Shown piece after piece: positions 7,403 through 62,992 of a stretch of 64,000 nt of DNA. A program made the translations under genes and the position numbers. The stretch's first letter is position 1. Each line of letters begins with the position of its first letter. The DNA comes from Histomonas meleagridis (taxonomy: Eukaryota > Parabasalia > Tritrichomonadida > Dientamoebidae): contig WSYJ01000186.1 in the NCBI GenBank assembly GCA_020186115.1, positions 3,269,501 to 3,333,500 on the forward strand. The letters are read 5' to 3'. The notes below the pieces were generated by a model. The model was not told where the DNA came from and made no database searches. It saw only the letters and a list, made by a program, of their open reading frames with translations.

Positions 7403-8419
7403 ATGGATAAAAAAAATGATAACTTCATTGCAACACTTTGTAAACTTGAGCAAATCATATTTAACCTAAGGAAAGAAGATCTTATGGTGTCAATTGAACA
7501 AACAATGAAATTATATGATTCAAATTTTTCATACTCATATAATTCAATTATTAGTAATTTAATTTATTCTGCATTTTATGCACAAAAATATTCAAGTGAT
7601 TTGTATTTAAATTATTTAGAAGCTTTTCAAACAAAAGAAGAAGAATTTTTTAAGGAGAAAATAAATATTATTAAAAATTTTTGTAATTATTTATGTAAGA
7701 TTAAATCACAAGAATCATATTATTTAATTGAAAGAATGATTGAAAAAAATTTAATTAGTTCAAATGTTACTAAATTCATCAATTCTAAATATTTTGCACA
7801 TTATAAAACAGAATCAGAAAACAAAACAAATTATGATGCTAAAGAAGATTATTTTCATGAAAATTATGAAGAGCTTTCAAAGAATGATTTTGAACTTCAT
7901 AAGCAATTCATCAAAGAAGGACATAATCCAAATGAAATAGCAAAAATAATTCGAAATGATGAATTAGAAAAACTTCAAGAAATGTCATCACAAACAAATT
8001 TTTATTTTAATCAAGAAATAAAACCATCAATTTATGAAAGATGTGATTTTATAAATCAAAAAAATGTTACATTAATTGATTATGCAGCATTTTTTGGATC
8101 AGTTAAATGTTTTAAATATTTACTTATGAATGGTGCAAAAGTAATAAATGCAGGTAAATATGCAGTTGCAGGTGGAAATGAAGAAATCATTCATTTATGT
8201 GAACAAAATCATTCTTCATTTTTTAAAGCATATGAAACAGCAATTGAATTCCATCAAAATGATATTTTTAAATATATTTATGAAAACAAATTAGAAAAAT
8301 TGGATGGAAACATAAATAGTTTGGCACAATTTTGTATTAATAATAATTATGAAATACTTTCTTTTTTGGAAGAAGAAGGTATGAAAATAAATGATTCTAT
8401 CTTTAATGAAACAGCTTAA
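7403..8419 (+). CDS. Ankyrin protein, DUF3447-like N-terminal part
   Basis: The ATG at 7403 opens a 338-codon frame with the layout of the large trichomonad ankyrin family: an alpha-helical N-terminal region, then degenerate ankyrin units (TLIDYAAFFGSVKCFKYLLM, AVAGGNEEIIHLCEQ) as in DUF3447. The frame ends at a TAA (8417-8419) that falls inside an ankyrin unit (NETA-stop-IGNLLLVKHFF). The same frame then runs open to 8597 and encodes a proper repeat ending GIDLNHKDV. One nonsense codon therefore separates this part from the array that follows, so the gene is either disrupted, read through, or mis-sequenced here. Partner proteins are unknown. Confidence 0.7.
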   Translation: MDKKNDNFIATLCKLEQIIFNLRKEDLMVSIEQTMKLYDSNFSYSYNSIISNLIYSAFYAQKYSSDLYLNYLEAFQTKEEEFFKEKINIIKNFCNYLCKIKSQESYYLIERMIEKNLISSNVTKFINSKYFAHYKTESENKTNYDAKEDYFHENYEELSKNDFELHKQFIKEGHNPNEIAKIIRNDELEKLQEMSSQTNFYFNQEIKPSIYERCDFINQKNVTLIDYAAFFGSVKCFKYLLMNGAKVINAGKYAVAGGNEEIIHLCEQNHSSFFKAYETAIEFHQNDIFKYIYENKLEKLDGNINSLAQFCINNNYEILSFLEEEGMKINDSIFNETA

Positions 8420-10646
8420 ATTGGGAATTTACTTCTTGTTAAACACTTCTTTCAAAATTATCAATTTCCAAAAAATATTTTATATATGACATTACTATCA
8501 GACAATACTGAACTTGTTAAATATATTTTAGGTCAAGATGGAATTGATTTAAATCATAAAGATGTTTATTTGATTTATATAGAGTTAATTTTTATAAAAT
8601 GAAATTTCAAAATTATATTTGGAAATTATTCAAGTTATTTAAAACAGCACTTATTTATGTATCTGAAAATGGTAATCAAAAAATGGTAGAATTACTTCTT
8701 GAACAAAAAGGAATTGATGTTAATGCAAAAAATATTTATTTGTTTAATTTTATGTTTATTATAATTCCTTCGTGTTTGAAAATAATATTTAGTAATCATA
8801 TTTATTAATTTGGACAGCATTTATGTTTGCAACTGATAAAAATCACATCGAAATAGTTAAGACATTTCTTGGAAATGAAGAAATTGATATAAACGGCGCA
8901 GATATTAATTTATTTTGCTTAATATTTATTTTAATAATTTAACATTTGAAAATAATATTTGGAATATATTTAAAATATTTAGAACAGTACTTATGAAAGC
9001 ATGTGAAAATGGTAATATCGAAATGGTTAAATTGTTTTTGGAACAAAAAGGAATTGATATTAATGCAAAAGATATTTAATTATATGATTGAAAGTTTATT
9101 TTAATAATTTATTGTTTAAAATTTATATTAGGAAATTATTTAAATTATTTTATACAGCACTTATGTATGCATCTATGAATTGTCATGCAGAAATAGTTAA
9201 ATTACTTCTTGAACAAAAAGGAATTGATATTAGAGCCAAAAATATTTGTTTATTTTATATAGTATTTATTTCAAAAACTTTATGCTTCATAACATAATTT
9301 GGAAATAATTCAATTTGTTTAAAACTGCATTTGAGTATGGAATGGAAAAAGGATGTGAAAAAATTACTGAATACCTTATTAATCAATATGTAATTGATAC
9401 CAATGTGCAAAATATTCTTTTATTTTATTTGAAATTTGTTTTAACAAATTTGTAATTATTAAAAATATTTGGTACAATACTTATTTTTGCATGTAAAAAA
9501 AATTGTTTCGATTTAGCTCAAGTACTTCTTCAACAAAAAAAATTTGATATTAACACTAAAGATATTTATTCATATAATTTAAAATTTGTAATAATAATAT
9601 AATGTTTTAAAATATTATTTGGAAATTTTCAAATATACTTGAAACAGCACTTGTGTTATCATCTAAAAATGGTTATATAGAAATAGTTAAATTACTTCTT
9701 GAACACGAAGGAATTGATATTAATGCCAAAGATTTTTATTTGTTTTATTTGATATTTATTTTAATAATTTAATATTTCAAAATAATATTTGGAAATGATT
9801 TAAATTGTTTGATACAGCACTTATGTATGCATCTAGAAATGACAACATAGAAATAGTTAAATTACTTCTTGAACAAGAAGGAATTGATATTAATGCTAAA
9901 GATATTTATTTGTTTTAAATAGAATTTATTTTAATAATTTTATATTTCAAAATAATATTTGGAAATTATTTAAATTATTTTGGACAGCACTTATTAGAGC
10001 ATCTTTAAATGGTCATACAGAAATAGTTAAATTACTTCTTGAACAAAAAGGAATTGATATTAATGCTAAAGATATTTATTTGGTTTATTTAAAATTTATT
10101 TTAATAATTTGATATTTCAAAATAATATTTGGAAATAATTCAAATTATTTAAAACAGCACTTGTTAGAGCATCTGAAGAAGGTTATATAGAAATAGTCAA
10201 ATTACTTCTTGAACAAAAAGGAATAGATATAAATGTAAAAGATATTTATTTATTTTGTTTAAATTTTATTTTGATAATTTAAGGTTTCAATATAATATTT
10301 GGAAATTAATTAAATCATTTAAAACTGCACTTATTTTAGCATCAGCAAATAATCTTATAAAAATAGTTAAATTACTTCTTGAACACGAAGGAATTGATGC
10401 TAATGTAGAAGATATTTATTTGTTTTATTTGATATTTATTTTAATAATTTAATATTTCAAAATAATATTTGGAAATTAATTAAATAATTTAAAACTGCGC
10501 TTATCATTGCATATAAAAAAGGTTATATAGAAATAGTTAAATTACTTCTTGAACATGAAGAAATTGATGCTAATGTAAAATGTATTTATTTGTTTTATTT
10601 GATATTTATTTTAATAATTTAATATTTCAAAATAATATTTGGAAAC
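8420..10646 (+). repeat. Ankyrin array 1: units of 93 nt with 77-nt spacers
   Basis: After the first unit (ending 8566), twelve more ankyrin units start at 8644, 8814, 8984, 9154, 9324, 9474, 9644, 9814, 9984, 10154, 10324 and 10494. Each is 93 nt from the Thr codon of TALMYAS to the Ile codon of INAKDI, and none contains a stop. They are separated by 77-nt AT-rich spacers, except the one at 9417-9473, which is 57 nt. The period of 170 nt shifts frame at every unit. The spacers contain stops in all frames but share a 3' part resembling TTTGGAAATTATT. The array breaks off at about 10646 within a spacer, with no clean C-terminus. Confidence 0.85.
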
Positions 10647-10924
10647 CACGCCTAAAAGTACATTTTATATTTGCAATTTATATTAATTTTCATTAAAACT
10701 CATAAAAGCATGAATAAAAATTCAATTCCCTTCGACTTATATAAAAATCCATTCTCTTTTTAGTTTAAAATGGCTCAAAAAAATCATTTGTATATCAAAT
10801 TTTTTGTAATATTGGTTGAAATTAATAAAGCATATTACAAACATATTATTCTATATCTTAATGAAAAAAATATTTTTTTTATTAATTTACATTCTTTAAA
10901 ACAATTATGTATACATTACATTTA
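10647..10924. other. Intergenic
   Basis: AT-rich spacer between the truncated ankyrin array and the 3' end of the LRR gene; nothing recognisable. Confidence 0.5.
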
Positions 10925-21133: not shown

Positions 21134-22979
21134 TTACTGTTCAGCAATAGCCATCAATGATGCGTAAACAGTCATAACCATTTCAGGAACATGTTCAACG
21201 ATATCTTCTGGGAGTGCGTAAACTGTGCCACCGAACTTACGTACCATTGACAACACGTACTTGGCGTTACGTGCCATCATCTCTGGTTCGCCTGAACTGT
21301 CGTAGATTGACCAGTCGACTGTCTCTGGCTTGAGGACGTCGATGAGTGTCAAGATTGGCTTAGAGTCGGAGATTGCGTCGTCCTTGAACGACTTGATTTC
21401 GCACTTTCCGGCTGTCTTCTCGTTGGCCCATGCGACGATTTGCTCATCCTTGATCTTAGCGCCGCCGCCGAGCTTCTTGAATGTCTTCAAGTAGTCGTAT
21501 CTCATCATTTGCCACATGACGGCTAAGATCAACTTAGTGTTTCCATCATTGATATCTGCGCCGGAGATGTTGACAACTGATAAGCCGAGTGTCTCCTTGC
21601 AGATCTTGACAACGTAGTCGTTGTTCTGCACTGCCTTGAATTTGTTCATCTTTTGTGTGGCGACTTGCTTCCAGTTGACGCATCCTGGCTCGAGCTTGTC
21701 AAGCATTTGGAGCAAGACAAGTCCGTCCTTGACGCCGTCAGCGAGGTTGGAAACGAACGGATCAACGCCGCATGAGTTCATCCAGAGGCAGAATTGACGT
21801 TCGATACGTGTGCCTTGTGCAGCGAATAATGCTTCATCGAGTTGTGCGAGTTCTGCTTCGGATAATGGCTCAAGTCCTGGACGTGTGTTGAAGATGTTGG
21901 CAACAAATGCAAGGTTAAGCTTTGGATGGCCACGAACAATTTCACGTGGTGTAACGAACTTGCGGCATTCGATCTTGTCGGCTTCTTGGAGCATTAATTC
22001 GGCACGTTCGGAAAGATCGCTCTCGCGCATTGGGGCCATTGTGCAGCATTCTGGTGCGATTTGCTTGAGAACTGTGGTGAGGATTTCGGAGTCGGAGAGA
22101 TCCTTTGTGAAGTTGGTTGCACGGCGTTGGCTTCCAGCATTTTCAAGGTGATAGTTCAACCAACGAAGAAGAATTTCTTCTGGCTTAAGCTTGAGGAGGT
22201 CTTCGATTGTTTCTCCTGGCTTAAGAAGACGGAAAAGTTCTGGGTGAACTGTAAGTTGGATATCCTTGAGAAGTGATTCACGGATAAGTTGCCATGTAAG
22301 ACCAAGAACAAGATGTGGAACACCTTCGCGGATATCGTGTGGACCAATGTTAACTGTTGACATACCAATGGACTTGGCAGGAATTGATGGCAAGTGTGCA
22401 GTTTTCAAGGATCTTGTATTGGTTAAGTTTTGGTGGAAGAGCAATAACTTTGTCATGGATTGTGTCTGGAGCAGCAAGGTTAACAAGCTTGCACATAAGG
22501 ATACCATCTTGAACGGCTGTGAAGAGAGCATCACCTTCTGGATCAATTGGGAGGATGTGTTGAAGGGCTGGATCTTCACCAAGTTCTTGGTTAAGATAGT
22601 TAACAAAACCAGTAACTTCTTCTTGTGGATATGCGTGTTCACCACGGGCACCAGCTGCCTTGATAAGGTTTTGTTGCTTCTTAAGACCTTCACTAAGTTT
22701 GGATGATGCACCACTTTCCTTTTCTTTGATGAAGATTGTAAGGAATTCACCAAAGTCAATAAGGCCATCACCATCGATATCTACTTCTTCGATGTACTTC
22801 TTAACTTCGTCACGTGTAGCTGGAACTTGGATAGACTTGAAGAGAGCCATGATTTCGGTGATTCCTAATTTTCCAGAATCATCAGCATCAAGGCTGTTGA
22901 AGTGCTGGGAATACATGAGAATTTCATCAGGTGTGAGTTGTGGGTACTTTGGGATATACTCGTTTGCGTTAACAGGCAT
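21134..22979 (-). CDS. Fimbrin/plastin actin-bundling protein, one-base frameshift
   Basis: From the ATG at 22979 two EF-hands come first (DADDSGKLGITE and DIDGDGLIDFGE loops), then four calponin-homology domains in the plastin order. Recognisable pieces are QHILPIDPEGDALF, GILMCKLVNLAAPDTI, NIGPHDIREGVPHLVLGLTW, NDGNTKLILAVMWQMMRYDY and a C-terminal CH domain ending MVMTVYASLMAIAEQ. Total length is about 615 residues, normal for fimbrin. It bundles F-actin in the cortex under calcium control. The frame breaks at about 22380, where one extra G:C in CAGGAATT separates ENCTLAINS from AKSIGMSTVNIG. Codons are GC-rich and biased as in a highly expressed gene, so an assembly or sequencing error is more likely than a pseudogene. 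Confidence 0.9.
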
Positions 22980-23439
22980 GAAAAGTGAAGTGATTTTGTC
23001 CGAGGCAAAATGTCCTAAGTTGGCGGTTTGTGATATGAAAGCAAAATACAAATTTTCTTTTATAATTTTCATATTATTATGAAATATTATGAAATAATCA
23101 ATAAATATCAATATAAAATATAAAAATAGAATCTGATAGCTTATATATGTTAATAATGAGAAAGAATTTATGTTCAAAAGATTATCGCCCGGTTATTAAC
23201 AAAATGGCACATTTTTCAGTAAAATCATACAAAAATGGTAAAAACCGGGAAAATGACACTTTTTAATAATCACAGAATCAATCAACACATAAACTTAAAA
23301 ATATCTATAAAAATTTTGGTAATGTACAATGTATTTTGTTATCTTTCATTATAAAGATACCAAAATTGAGATCGTTGAAGGAAGTAAAAGTGGTTCTCAA
23401 ACAATTTGATCTTAAATGCCTTTCAATGACTGTTCCTAA
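22980..23439. other. Upstream region of fimbrin
   Basis: Holds the fimbrin 5' flank (an in-frame upstream ATG at about 23072 could extend it) and the decayed end of ankyrin remnant 2b. Nothing else seen. Confidence 0.5.
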
Positions 23440-23789
23440 ATATTACTATTTAACATATGTTATAACAAATACTTATGAATTGTTCAAGAAGTAATTTAAC
23501 GATTTCTATATAATCACTTACAGATGCCCACATAGGCGCTGTTTGAGATATTTAAAATATATTACAAATATTATTTTTAAATATAAAATTATTAAAATAA
23601 AAATTAAATATTATTCATAAATATCTTTAGCATTAATATCAATTCCTTCTTGTTCAAGAAGTAAATTAAATATATCTATATGACCTTTGTAAGATGCAAA
23701 CATAAGTGCTGTTGCAAATAATTTAAACAATTTCCAAATTTTATTTTGAAATTTCATAATATCAAAATAAATTTTAAATAAAACTATAA
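23440..23789 (-). pseudogene. Two-unit ankyrin array remnant
   Basis: Reading minus, a spacer-like segment leads into a full 93-nt ankyrin unit at 23712-23620 (TALMFASYKGHIDIFNLLL), then exactly 77 nt of spacer (23619-23543), then a second unit starting 23542 (TAPMWASVSDYIEIVKLLL) that decays after LLLEQ. There is no N-terminal part. It is probably a broken duplicate of the neighbouring array at 24.5-25.9 kb. Confidence 0.7.
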
Positions 23790-24475: not shown

Positions 24476-25930
24476 TTATCTTTTTATGATTTCGTCGCAT
24501 TTTTTGTGTTCGATTTTGTCAGCAAATAACCGAATTATGTCTGCGTTTTTGTGTTTGTATGCGTAAATAAGCGCTGTTCTTTACGATTTAAATAATTTCC
24601 AAATATTATTTTGAAATATCAAATGATTAAAATAAATTTCAAATAAAACAAATAAATATCTTTGGCATCAATATCAATTCCTTCTTGATCAAGAAGTAAT
24701 TTAACTATTTCTGTATAACAATATTTAGATGCAATTATAAGTGCTGCATCAAATAATTCAAAGAATTCCCAAATATTATTTGAAAATAATAGATGATCGA
24801 AATAAATTTTATTTTTAGCATTAATCTCAATTCCTTCTCGTTCAAGAAGTAATTTAACTATTTCTATATTACCATTTTTAGATGCAAACATAAGTGCTGT
24901 ATTAAATAATTTAAATAATTTCCAAGTTTTATTTTGAGGTATCATATCATAAAAATAAATTCTAAATATTATAAATAAATATCTTTAGCATTAATCTCAA
25001 TTCCTTCTCGTTCAAGAAGTATTTTAACTATATCTGTATGACCTTTGTAAGATGCAAACATAAGTGCTGTTGCAAATAATTTCATTAATTTCCAAATTAT
25101 ATATTGAAATAATAAATTATCATAATAAATGTCAAATCAAACAAATAAATATCTTTAGCATTAATATCAATTCCTTCTTGCTCAAGAAGTAATTTAACTA
25201 TATCTGTATGACCTTTGTAAGATGCAAACATAAGTGCTGTTGTAAATAATTTGATTAATTTTTAAATTATATATTGAAATAATAAATCATTAAAATATAT
25301 ATCAAATAAAACATATAAATATTTTTAGCATTAATATCAATTCCTTTTTGTTCAAGAAGTAATTTAACTATATCTGTATGACCTTTGTAAGATGCAAGCA
25401 TAAGTGTTGTAAATAATTAAAATAATTTCCAAATATTATTTTTATCTTTCAAATTATTTAAATAAATATGAAAACAAACATATAAATATCTTTAGCATTA
25501 ATATCAATTCCATTTTTTTCAAGAAGTAACTTCACTATTTCTGTATGACCATTTATAGATGCAAAAATAAGTGCTGTTCGAAAATATTTGAGAAATTTCC
25601 AGATATTATTTTGAAATTTTATATGATTAAAACAACGATGAAATTAAACATATTAATATTTTTAGCATTAACATCAATTCCTTCTTGTTCAAGAAGTACT
25701 TTTATTAATTCTATATGACCTTTACGTGTTGCCCAATGAAGCGCTGTTTCAATCATTGATGATGAACACCAAAAAAAATTATCAAACATCAAATAGTCAT
25801 AAGAAACATATTTCTCATTAATTTTAAAGATATTTTTTTCGATTTGCCACTTGATAAATAATGAAAATTCTTTATAGTATTGCTTTTGACTCATTTTTGT
25901 GAAGTACTTTAGAACACAAACAACTGGCAT
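24476..25930 (-). CDS. Ankyrin repeat protein with 77-nt spacers (locus 2)
   Basis: ATG at 25930 begins an N-terminal region (KMSQKQYYKEFSLFIKWQIE) leading in frame into the first ankyrin unit at 25747. Units of 93 nt then start at 25577, 25410, 25240, 25070, 24900, 24747 and 24577. The last runs into a distinct tail (ADKIEHKKCDEIIKR) and a TAA at 24478-24476, so this copy has both a start and a natural C-terminus. Spacers are 77 nt (five), 74 nt (25484-25411) and 60 nt (24807-24748). The 60-nt one is open and in frame, adding a linker that contains SNNIWEFFELFD. All units are stop-free. Continuous translation needs removal of the other spacers. Confidence 0.7.
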
Positions 25931-58929: not shown

Positions 58930-60114
58930 ATGGAAGGAGACAACAACAACACAGAACAAAATCAACCTGAAGAAGTGACATCCACACAACAAAATCAACC
59001 TGAAGAAGTGACATCCACACAACAAAATCAACCTGAAGAAGTGACATCCACACAACAAAATCAACCTGAAGAAGTAACATCTACAGAACCAACACCAAAT
59101 ACTGGTGGTACAGAACAACCACCAAATATTAACGAAGAATCAATTGAGACAAGGGATCCAACTCCTGACAATGACACACTTGAATCAAATGAAGCAGTTG
59201 AACCAACGTATACATATATTGATCCAGAACAACCAAATCAACAAGAAGATCAAAATGAAGTTGAAGGAGAGCCAGTAGAACCTGTGATGCCAACTGATGC
59301 TGTTGTACCACCAACTCCATTACGACCACCACCTTTTGATATGGGTCCACCACCAGCTACAAGTTATACAATGGTTAGTCCACTTATTGTAGACACCAGT
59401 GAACGTAGGCGAATGGATGGTTACAATCTTTACAACGTCATTTATCATACAGATGTTGGACCATCTAATTGGCATACTACACCATGTGATTATACTCCCA
59501 ATTCCAACAGTTTCTGGGAAATGTTCGAAATATTTCGTACAGCACTTATGTTAGCTTCTCTAAATAATCGAATAGAATCAATTAAATTACTCCTTGAGCA
59601 AAAAGCAATTGATGTTAATGCTAAAGATATTCATTTGTTTGACATAAAATTTATTTCAATAATTTGAAGTTTTGCTAAAATTTTTAAATTTTTTTCAAAA
59701 TCGATAAAACAGCTCTGATATTGGCATCTTCACGTGGTCATATAGATGCAGTTAAATTACTTCTAAAAAGAGAAGGAATTGACGTTAATGCTGTAGATGT
59801 TTATTTGTTTTATGTAAATTTAATTTTGATAATTTTTTATTTCAAAATCATGTATAAGATTTATTCAAATTGTTTAATACAGCGCTCATGGAAGCAGTAA
59901 AATCGGGTTATACCGAAATCGTTAAATTACTTCTGGAACAAAATGGAATAGATATTAATGCTAAAAATATAATTTTATTTTGTTTTGGTTTTATTTTTGC
60001 ATTTTTATGTTTTTAAATTTTGTTTGGAAATTGTTCAAATTATTTAAATCAGCTCTTATGATCGCTTCTGCTTCAGGTTTTACAGAAATAGTCAAATTAC
60101 TTGAACAAAAATAA
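58930..60114 (+). CDS. Ankyrin protein with Gln/Glu/Pro-rich N-terminus and 77-nt spacers (locus 3)
   Basis: ATG at 58930 starts an unstructured N-terminus with four exact-type 11-residue repeats (QNQPEEVTSTQ, 58950-59085), then an acidic and proline-rich stretch. It runs in frame through NSFWEMFEIFRTALMLAS into the first ankyrin unit at 59539. Units start at 59539, 59709, 59879 and 60049, with three spacers of exactly 77 nt (59632, 59802, 59972). The last unit ends ASGFTEIVKLLEQK-stop at 60114. Without spacer removal the frame ends at 59667 after one repeat. Expected role is protein-protein scaffolding; the partner is unknown. Confidence 0.7.
58950..59085 (+). repeat. 33-nt tandem repeat
   Basis: Four near-identical 33-nt copies encoding QNQPEEVTSTQ at the N-terminus of ankyrin locus 3; only a few bases differ, so expansion is recent. 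Confidence 0.9.
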
Positions 60115-61143: not shown

Positions 61144-62992
61144 ATGAGTACAACTAAGAATATGAAGAATATTGAAGGTATTAATACTACATTAAATTTT
61201 ACTAGTAATGCCATGAAAGTATTAAAAGCGCGATATCTTCAACAAGATGAAAACAATGAAATCATTGAAACCCCAGAAGAAATGTTTCAACGAGTAGCCA
61301 AATGTTTAGCATCAGTTGAAAAAGATGAAGAAAAAAATGGAGTCGAATTTTTTAGTGAAGTTATGACAAATTTTGAATTTATTCCAGCAGGACGTACATT
61401 AGCCAATGCAGGTGCCAAGACAGCACTTATTTCTAATTGTGTTGTTTTACATATGGAAGATTCTTTAGATAGTATTTTTGATACACTTAAAGAAGCAGCA
61501 CTTCTTCAACAAGCAGGTTCAGGTATTGGATTTCCATTTCATCTTCTTCGACCAGCAGGATTTAAATGTAAACGAACACTTGGTTCATCAAGTGGACCAT
61601 TATCATTTTTACGAATTTATTCAGAAGCATTTCGAATAGTTCAACAACATGGTCGTCATGGAGCTAATATGGCTTTAATGCGTGTTGATCATCCCGATAT
61701 TTTAGAATTTATTGAAGCCAAAGCTAAAGAAGGTACATATGAGAATTTTAATTTTTCAGTTGGACTTACTGATGAATTTATGGAACGAGTTATTAATAAT
61801 GATCCAACACCATGGTTATGTACATGGAATGGTGAAAAGATGAAACCACGATATATTACACGTGATGCAGCAGGACGTATTACAGATATTACAGAAGCTG
61901 ATATTTCAGCGCCAGAAATTATGGATGAAATTATTTATAGTGCATGGCGTAATGGTGAACCAGGATGTATTTTTCTTGATACAGTTAATAAGACTAATCC
62001 ATTACCAGGTCTTGGGCCTATTGAATGTTGTAATCCATGTGGAGAACAATATCTTCATTCAGGTGATGCATGTAATTTAGGATCAATTAATTTAGAAAAA
62101 TTTGTTAATTCAGATCGTACATTAAATGAAGAAAAATTAAAAGAAGTTACACGTATAGCAGTTCGAATGTTAGATAATGTAGTAGATTTAACACAATTTC
62201 CAGTAGAACGTGTTAATACTATGTTTAAAAATAATAGACGTATTGGTTTAGGTATTATGGGTTTAGCAGATATGTTATTTTTTAATGAAATTACCATATA
62301 ATTCAGAAGAAGGACGAAAAGTAGCTACACGAGCTATGGAAATTATTCAAGAAACATCTATTGATGAATCAATTAAACTTGGAGCTGAAAAAGGTAATTT
62401 CCCAAACTTTGATAAAAGTATTTGGTGTAAGAAATATGCGACGATGCGAAATGCATCATTAACTAATGTAGCACCTACTGGTTCTACATCTATGTTAATG
62501 GATGTTTCATCAGGTGTTGAACCATATTTTGCATTAGCATATCGACGATGTAATTGTTTAGCAGGTGAAATGAAACCATTTGTTAACAAACATTTAAAGA
62601 AAGCACTTAAAGAAAATAATTGTTATTCTAAAGAAATTATGGAACAAATCCTTCAAACAGGTACATTAAGGAATGTTATCGGAGTTCCAGAAGAAGTTAA
62701 AAAAGTATTTGTTACATCATTGGATATTTCACCTAAAGATCATATTAATATGCAAAGTGAAATTCAAAAATATACATGTAACGCGATTTCTAAAACAGTT
62801 AATTTTGAACAAGATGCAACAGAAGATATGGTTCGAGAAGGATTTATCGAAGGATGGAAATTGGGTTGTAAAGGTTTAACAGTTTATCGAAATGGTTCAA
62901 GACAATATCAAGTTCTTGAAACTAAAGCACAAAGTAATGAAGCTGTGAAAACTTTTGTCGATACTTGTAAAGATGGTAAATGTGATATTTAA
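61144..62992 (+). CDS. Class II (adenosylcobalamin-dependent) ribonucleotide reductase, one-base frameshift
   Basis: The two frames 61144-62301 and 62285-62992 together give about 615 residues collinear with NrdJ_Z-type reductases. Landmarks are an N-terminal NCVVLHMEDSLDSIFDTL, QQAGSGIGFPF, TLGSSSGPLSF, QHGRHGANMALM, the radical-site motif NPCGEQ, NRRIGLGIMGLADM, VAPTGSTSM, LGCKGLTVYRNGSRQ, and a C-terminal cysteine pair (TCKDGKCDI) for re-reduction. It would make deoxyribonucleotides without oxygen, using B12. The frame breaks in a T6 run at 62278-62283; one T fewer makes it continuous. Bacterial-type sequence suggests lateral transfer, yet it has host-like AT-rich codons. The stop reads TAAA. 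Confidence 0.9.

Follow-up and report, generated by a model that had tools for sequence, protein, structure and literature searches.

In ankyrin genes of the poultry parasite Histomonas meleagridis we found T-rich inserts of exactly 17 nucleotides (nt) placed between successive single codons. They are described here on a stretch of 64,000 nt (assembly GCA_020186115.1, contig WSYJ01000186.1, positions 3,269,501 to 3,333,500 of the forward strand; hereafter the window), which carries arrays of ankyrin modules separated by spacers. A spacer of 77 nt consists of four 17-nt inserts and three single codons in the order D [17] x [17] x [17] G [17] x-T-A-L, and the joined single codons give the ordinary ankyrin loop (beta-turn) D-x-x-G-x-T. 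At the DNA level, independent tests show that this turn is carried by coding pieces of one codon each. From the avoidance of stop codons and the spelling of the loop we infer that all coding pieces would be decoded into one long ankyrin protein, and from the anatomy of the DNA that the inserts would be removed from the RNA. Single-codon anatomy, one protein and a splicing-like RNA removal of the 17-nt inserts together form the best explanation, which we consider probable.

Array 1 (8471-10583, + strand) comprises 13 ankyrin modules with 12 spacers between them. Counted between the D codon and the following x codon, eleven of the spacers have exactly 77 nt and one, at 9414-9470, has 57 nt. The period is 170 nt, so that successive modules shift frame. 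An earlier note on this DNA had already counted these units and spacers and recognised the frame change at each unit; only the short spacer, given there as 9417-9473, had to be moved. Its start of the array at 8420 is explained by a TAA at 8417-8419, which closes the first exon, whereas its description of the spacers as non-coding had to be abandoned, since each 77-nt spacer contains three single codons. Module 1 has 31 codons with the D codon last. The first exon contains PF11929 (DUF3447) above the cut-off (29.8 bits vs 26.9) as well as PF13637, and PF00023 is above the cut-off in the open reading frames (ORFs) of arrays 2 and 3; the piece of 60 amino acids at 8420-8599 by itself had no Pfam match. 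The features of array 1 are as follows.

7403..8419, +, first exon region, N-terminal DUF3447/ankyrin-like ORF (338 amino acids; ATG at 7403 in the ORF list; Pfam DUF3447 5.6e-07)
8471..8563, +, ankyrin module 1
8564..8640, +, insert block 1, [17] AGA(R) [17] GAA(E) [17] GGA(G) [17]
8641..8733, +, ankyrin module 2
8734..8810, +, insert block 2, [17] TAT(Y) [17] CGT(R) [17] AGT(S) [17]
8811..8903, +, ankyrin module 3
8904..8980, +, insert block 3, single codons N, N, G
8981..9073, +, ankyrin module 4
9074..9150, +, insert block 4, single codons K, I, G
9151..9243, +, ankyrin module 5
9244..9320, +, insert block 5, single codons S, Y, G
9321..9413, +, ankyrin module 6
9414..9470, +, short insert block 6 (57 nt), [17] GAA(E) [17] TGT(C) [17], three inserts and two codons
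9471..9563, +, ankyrin module 7
9564..9640, +, insert block 7, single codons K, N, G
9641..9733, +, ankyrin module 8
9734..9810, +, insert block 8, single codons D, N, G
9811..9903, +, ankyrin module 9
9904..9980, +, insert block 9, single codons R, Y, G
9981..10073, +, ankyrin module 10
10074..10150, +, insert block 10, single codons K, D, G
10151..10243, +, ankyrin module 11
10244..10320, +, insert block 11, single codons K, K, G
10321..10413, +, ankyrin module 12
10414..10490, +, insert block 12, single codons D, N, G
10491..10583, +, ankyrin module 13 (last)
10584..10655, +, terminal block (cut by eye), three 17-nt inserts with D, N and G codons, three-codon tail, in-register TAA at 10653-10655

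Blocks of the window read, for example, D/R/E/G/K, N/Y/R/S/W and D/N/N/G/R, with an insert at each slash. No stop occurs in a single codon of the 23 window blocks (21 blocks of 77 nt and two of 57 nt) when these are cut at fixed positions. The TAA at 9077-9079 behind module 4 falls within the first 17-nt insert of block 4 and outside any codon. The TTTGG motif of the spacers represents the end of insert 3 together with the Gly codon. A stop as close as the TAA of the terminal block, within four codons, is not unusual by chance at that place.

Coding frame and register of modules and single codons

The array design is widespread in the 43.3-Mb assembly of H. meleagridis, with at least 219 matches to a 340-base query (40 of 1,799 first-look candidates were scored); for DUF3447 at least 150 matches were obtained (150 of 1,695 candidates were scored). 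From the best matches 20 loci of the main family with 8-10 kb each were taken. A profile derived from five units of the window yielded 329 units in 26 locus-strand groups within the window and these loci. The spacers have the 77-nt length, which corresponds to 74 nt by our first measure, in 252 of 296 cases; by that first measure the others are between 37 and 94 nt long, with minor classes of 54 (7), 57 (7), 75 (11) and 94 nt (2) besides others. The constant spacer length claimed in the earlier note thus holds for most spacers, with exceptions. The steps of 20 nt (54/74/94) correspond to one codon plus one insert. The last module listed leads into a stop in 16 of the 26 groups.

Within 282 ungapped modules four stops were counted in the coding frame, where 143.5 were expected from the column composition with the columns treated as independent. 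The other two frames contained 520 stops (545.6 expected) and 1558 stops (1511.9 expected). A restriction to the 106 non-redundant modules gave three stops against 59.1. These counts bear out the view that the units stay open, and since stops are all but missing from just one of the frames, a satellite-like decay, which the earlier note had considered, is disfavoured. Variability by codon position is 0.21 at the second position, 0.35 at the first and 0.31 at the third.

The same avoidance applies to the single codons. Neither the first nor the second single codon of 252 blocks contained a stop (8.6 and 8.2 expected, respectively), nor did those of the 84 non-redundant blocks (5.9 and 3.2 expected). 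For the Gly codon no stops are expected, so that it is uninformative in this test, and every other triplet position of the non-redundant blocks with an expectation of at least 3 has stops near the expected number. An independent comparison concerned the spelling of the loop: the three codons from each of 95 non-redundant blocks were compared with 64 distinct loops from uninterrupted repeats of the same genome. At the predicted register the amino acids scored +1.96 bits per codon, whereas all 20 shifted registers from -10 to +10 were negative (-0.4 to -4.0 bits per codon).

Insert ends, other ankyrin genes and further arrays

For the analysis of the ends 47 inserts from on-grid junctions were used, namely 54 minus seven near-copies of the main family, with low-scoring parses excluded; since the selection used the main-family profile, the end frequencies are somewhat favoured. 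The inserts mostly show purine-TTT at the 5' end and TTT at the 3' end: A or G stands at base 1 in 45 of 47, and T at bases 2-4 and 15-17 in 40-44. G is the first base in 19 inserts, none ends in AG, and CTAA occurs in three, one of them being GTTTTTTTCTAATATTT. Neither GT...AG ends nor a CTAA branch motif fused to the 3' end, as known from trichomonads, thus characterise the 17-nt inserts. Among the 12 spacers of array 1 as a whole, none starts with GTATGT and none ends in AG, which confirms that there is no conserved GT...AG and no fit to the Trichomonas intron consensus.

One strict trichomonad intron pattern had no match genome-wide. A looser canonical pattern gave 11 matches versus 13 in a reversed control, so that the count alone is no evidence; 10 of the 11 measure 23-25 nt although 19-43 nt were allowed. 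Candidate canonical tiny introns of this kind (GTATGT..CTAAC..CAG, e.g., C2:301878, C8:470311 and C107:137946) resemble the Trichomonas type B. The Prp8 U6-binding domain is present on an open frame of 2333 amino acids, and a U6 candidate scored 43.7, just below the cut-off of 44. The Rfam search for U1 returned nothing, but neither did its control, and Rfam had no match over the window at the gathering score.

The 17-nt quantum was also recovered in 27 further loci (L029-L055). As these were fetched for strong ankyrin hits, the share of interrupted junctions among them is no estimate for the genome, and their weakest pairs include chance hits. Uninterrupted repeats mostly follow each other at 99 or 102 nt, and 26 of 39 spaced pairs (110-175 nt) lie on a grid of 99/102+17k, where 4.7 were expected (P=2e-15). 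Stricter score cut-offs left 24 of 34 and 20 of 29 pairs on the grid, and alternative quanta from 10 to 30 nt reached P=0.1 at best. The quantum is seen singly, doubly and triply in these divergent genes. In L031, L032 and L038 the loop Gly, or the residue in its place, is separated from the following residue by a spacer of just 17 nt. Decompositions into 17-mers and codons read D-S/A/G/Y-T (L033) or D-N/E-G/L-T (L042); two spaced pairs yielded none and several off-grid pairs only poor ones.

In non-ankyrin genes no 17-nt inserts were recognised by eye among 38 pairs of long ORFs in 249 kb, a weak test in which ankyrin pairs were included. The frame offsets of these pairs were 1 in 16 cases, 2 in 12 and 0 in 10. 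Two other ORFs of the window are split by a one-base frame offset, which may be an assembly slip or a real frameshift. According to motifs recognised by eye, we take the one at 61144-62992 (+) to be ribonucleotide-reductase-like and the one at 21134-23177 (-) to be fimbrin-like.

Two further arrays of the window share the architecture of array 1:

24488..25750, -, array 2, eight modules with six 77-nt blocks and one 57-nt block (24751-24807)
59536..60114, +, array 3, four modules with three 77-nt blocks

The first module of array 3 is in frame with a different N-terminal ORF (from 58930 on), and the last one ends with LLEQK-stop. A 33-nt tandem repeat (58950-59089) stands there in place of the DUF3447 front; the array design is thus found behind different gene fronts. 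A remnant with two modules lies at 23453-23715 (-), approximately 770 bases past array 2. Outside the window, L015 (1474-8108, minus orientation) harbors an array of 40 units with many one-base indels in modules and inserts, likely due to decay or homopolymer errors.

Proposed removal or skipping of the inserts

In 38 of 111 non-redundant spacers (26 of 85 with a length of 2 mod 3, 9 of 19 with 0 and 3 of 7 with 1), stops close every path through the whole spacer that has one slip or fewer. A frameshift translation of the whole spacer was rejected for this reason, and removal or skipping is proposed. When only the last 17-mer is considered, 110 of 111 leave a path with one slip open, and this test by itself has no force against slippage there. 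The claim that a continuous protein needs removal or skipping at every junction is supported by the stop, insert-end and loop-spelling tests. A single intron of 68-77 nt per junction was rejected because the interleaved codons avoid stops and spell the loop; the fixed-length intron class considered in the earlier note would therefore have to be recast as four 17-nt inserts with three codons.

In the mechanism we favour, 17-nt T-rich inserts follow one another at each junction, placed between successive codons of D-x-x-G-x-T, and a splicing-like activity would take them out of the RNA ahead of translation. This activity would read the insert ends, the fixed span of 17 nt or both, and not GT-AG with a CTAAC branch site. 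The arrays would have grown by duplication of 170-nt units of module plus block and of 20-nt units of codon plus insert, as suggested by the spacings of 150, 170 and 190 nt.

Several observations weigh against this explanation. The in-frame TAA at 8417-8419 ends the first exon of array 1, and with this nonsense codon the gene may be dead. The array 1 copy is possibly a pseudogene, which need not apply to its kind: by eye, the site is open in ten paralogues (L009, L010, L011, L012, L013, L016, L017, L021, L023 and L028). The ratio of nonsynonymous to synonymous substitutions (dN/dS, Nei-Gojobori) lies close to 1 in the modules (0.92 over 268 nearest pairs), and the shifted-frame controls gave 0.71 and 1.10 (146 pairs each), so that the true frame is not separated; medians by distance bin were 0.79-1.24, with 2.83 in one bin of two pairs. 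The modules hence give no dN/dS signal of purifying selection on the ankyrin protein, and the selection on protein claimed earlier is backed by stops and second codon positions and not by dN/dS. Moreover, 13 of the 39 spaced pairs are off the 17-nt grid, seven of them by one base, and inserts of 19 nt (L038) and 18 nt (L043, L050) occur at the same loop position. The module length is not divisible by three in 15 of roughly 300 non-terminal modules, seven of these in L015. The best covarying column pairs of 66 non-redundant 74-nt spacers, each taken as one block, form no helix; a conserved RNA hairpin around TTTGG, which had been suspected by eye, was discarded for this absent covariation. Finally, a conventional spliceosome would hardly manage 17-nt introns beside exons of 3 nt.

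A relaxed spliceosome for tiny introns, which removes ultrashort introns without GT-AG, would be one form of the favoured explanation and shares in its probability; by itself we regard it as possible, though doubtful. The Prp8 frame, the U6 candidate just under its cut-off, the candidate 23-25 nt introns (their count being no higher than in the reversed control) and the three inserts with CTAA speak for it, as do the introns of Stentor with 15-16 nt (PMC9505925). It is difficult to reconcile with the lack of AG at any insert end, the first G in only 19 of 47 inserts, the absence of CTAA from 44 of 47 and the 3-nt exons.

It is unlikely that only the first exon with a hydrophobic read-through tail is translated and the later modules are silent, forming a pseudogene array or serving as a reservoir for gene conversion. 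Similar tails end the first ORFs, both annotated Histomonas homologues end at or before the first junction, and the observed dN/dS near 1 would agree with it; yet stops are nearly absent from the later modules and absent from the single codons, terminal stops are found in 16 of 26 groups, and a silent store has no need of single codons in loop order between inserts. A translational bypassing, in which the inserts stay in the mRNA and the ribosome hops 17 nt after each codon, is quite unlikely as well. The fixed length and the position between codons would suit a ruler at the level of the ribosome, and spliceosomal signals are lacking. Known bypassing, however, re-pairs matched take-off and landing codons, whereas here the take-off codon varies freely and the last insert triplet is mostly TTT, and the protein of array 1 would take about 50 hops. 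We consider it very improbable that the inserts are cut from the DNA at some life stage like the internal eliminated sequences of ciliates. They are precise, short and AT-rich between coding pieces, but neither a constant terminal direct repeat nor a TA boundary was seen, and they are present in the sequenced genome; to our knowledge, programmed DNA elimination has not been described in parabasalids.

Known systems, relatives and meaning

The 17-nt inserts match no intron type known to us. As intervening sequences in a parabasalid they resemble the introns of Trichomonas vaginalis and T. stableri, of which type B is tiny and T-rich with 23-25 nt in T. vaginalis; types A and B have GT-AG, a fused ACTAA/CTAA 3' motif and at most two copies per gene (PMC12316389). 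The Histomonas inserts differ in their 17 nt, the missing AG end, their dozens per gene and the 3-nt exons. The introns of Stentor coeruleus (15-16 nt) are likewise ultrashort and of near-constant length, but mostly GU-AG with a branch A at a fixed position (PMC9505925). Non-canonical borders are shared with the nonconventional introns of euglenids, which vary in length between some tens of bases and more than a kilobase and have pairing ends (PMC4770533); the inserts are fixed to a 17-nt quantum instead of a variable length, and no pairing was supported in whole spacers. For the genome of the virulent H. meleagridis strain, at most one intron per gene is reported, with 573 introns in 11,119 genes (PMC8529796).

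Sequence between codons is also skipped, though to a lesser extent, in the bypass elements of T4 gene 60 and the mitochondrial byps of Magnusiomyces. Those systems have matched take-off and landing codons and longer gaps, neither of which is seen in the Histomonas inserts. A search by title and abstract found no account of 17-nt inserts, with subscription papers mostly and bioRxiv-only preprints wholly outside its coverage.

With the trichomonad DUF3447/ankyrin family (PF11929, PF00023) the Histomonas arrays have the N-terminal domain and the repeats in common. A homology search with one first exon returned 28 proteins, including homologues of T. foetus and T. musculus. Close to the last Asn/Asp, nine metagenome-derived relatives with 37-53% identity (P0005, P0007, P0008, P0010, P0012, P0015, P0016, P0017 and P0019) continue, by eye, into hydrophobic tails that resemble inserts, an indication of inserts outside this strain. 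The proteins of Tritrichomonas, P0021 (T. foetus) and P0027 (T. musculus), end in short hydrophobic tails at an ankyrin loop, and P0021 holds several uninterrupted repeats. These tails would fit insert-bearing genes and are a lead from the protein sequence alone.

On balance we tend to regard the inserts as a new class of intervening sequences: exactly 17 nt long, purine-UUU...UUU without GT-AG, lying between consecutive codons, with hundreds of one-codon exons in the loci examined and probably thousands genome-wide. They would be removed by a length-measuring machinery and would have spread through the ankyrin genes of this parabasalid and perhaps its relatives. If the inserts are removed, H. 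meleagridis would possess a eukaryotic intron-like system outside GT-AG with a fixed length of 17 nt and coding exons down to one codon. This would bear on how splicing or decoding works, and also on the origin of introns and their multiplication through duplication. The annotation of a very large family of ankyrin genes in Histomonas would then be wrong, the two annotated homologues ending at or before the first junction, and the cell would have to skip or remove many tiny pieces per ankyrin gene of this parasite.
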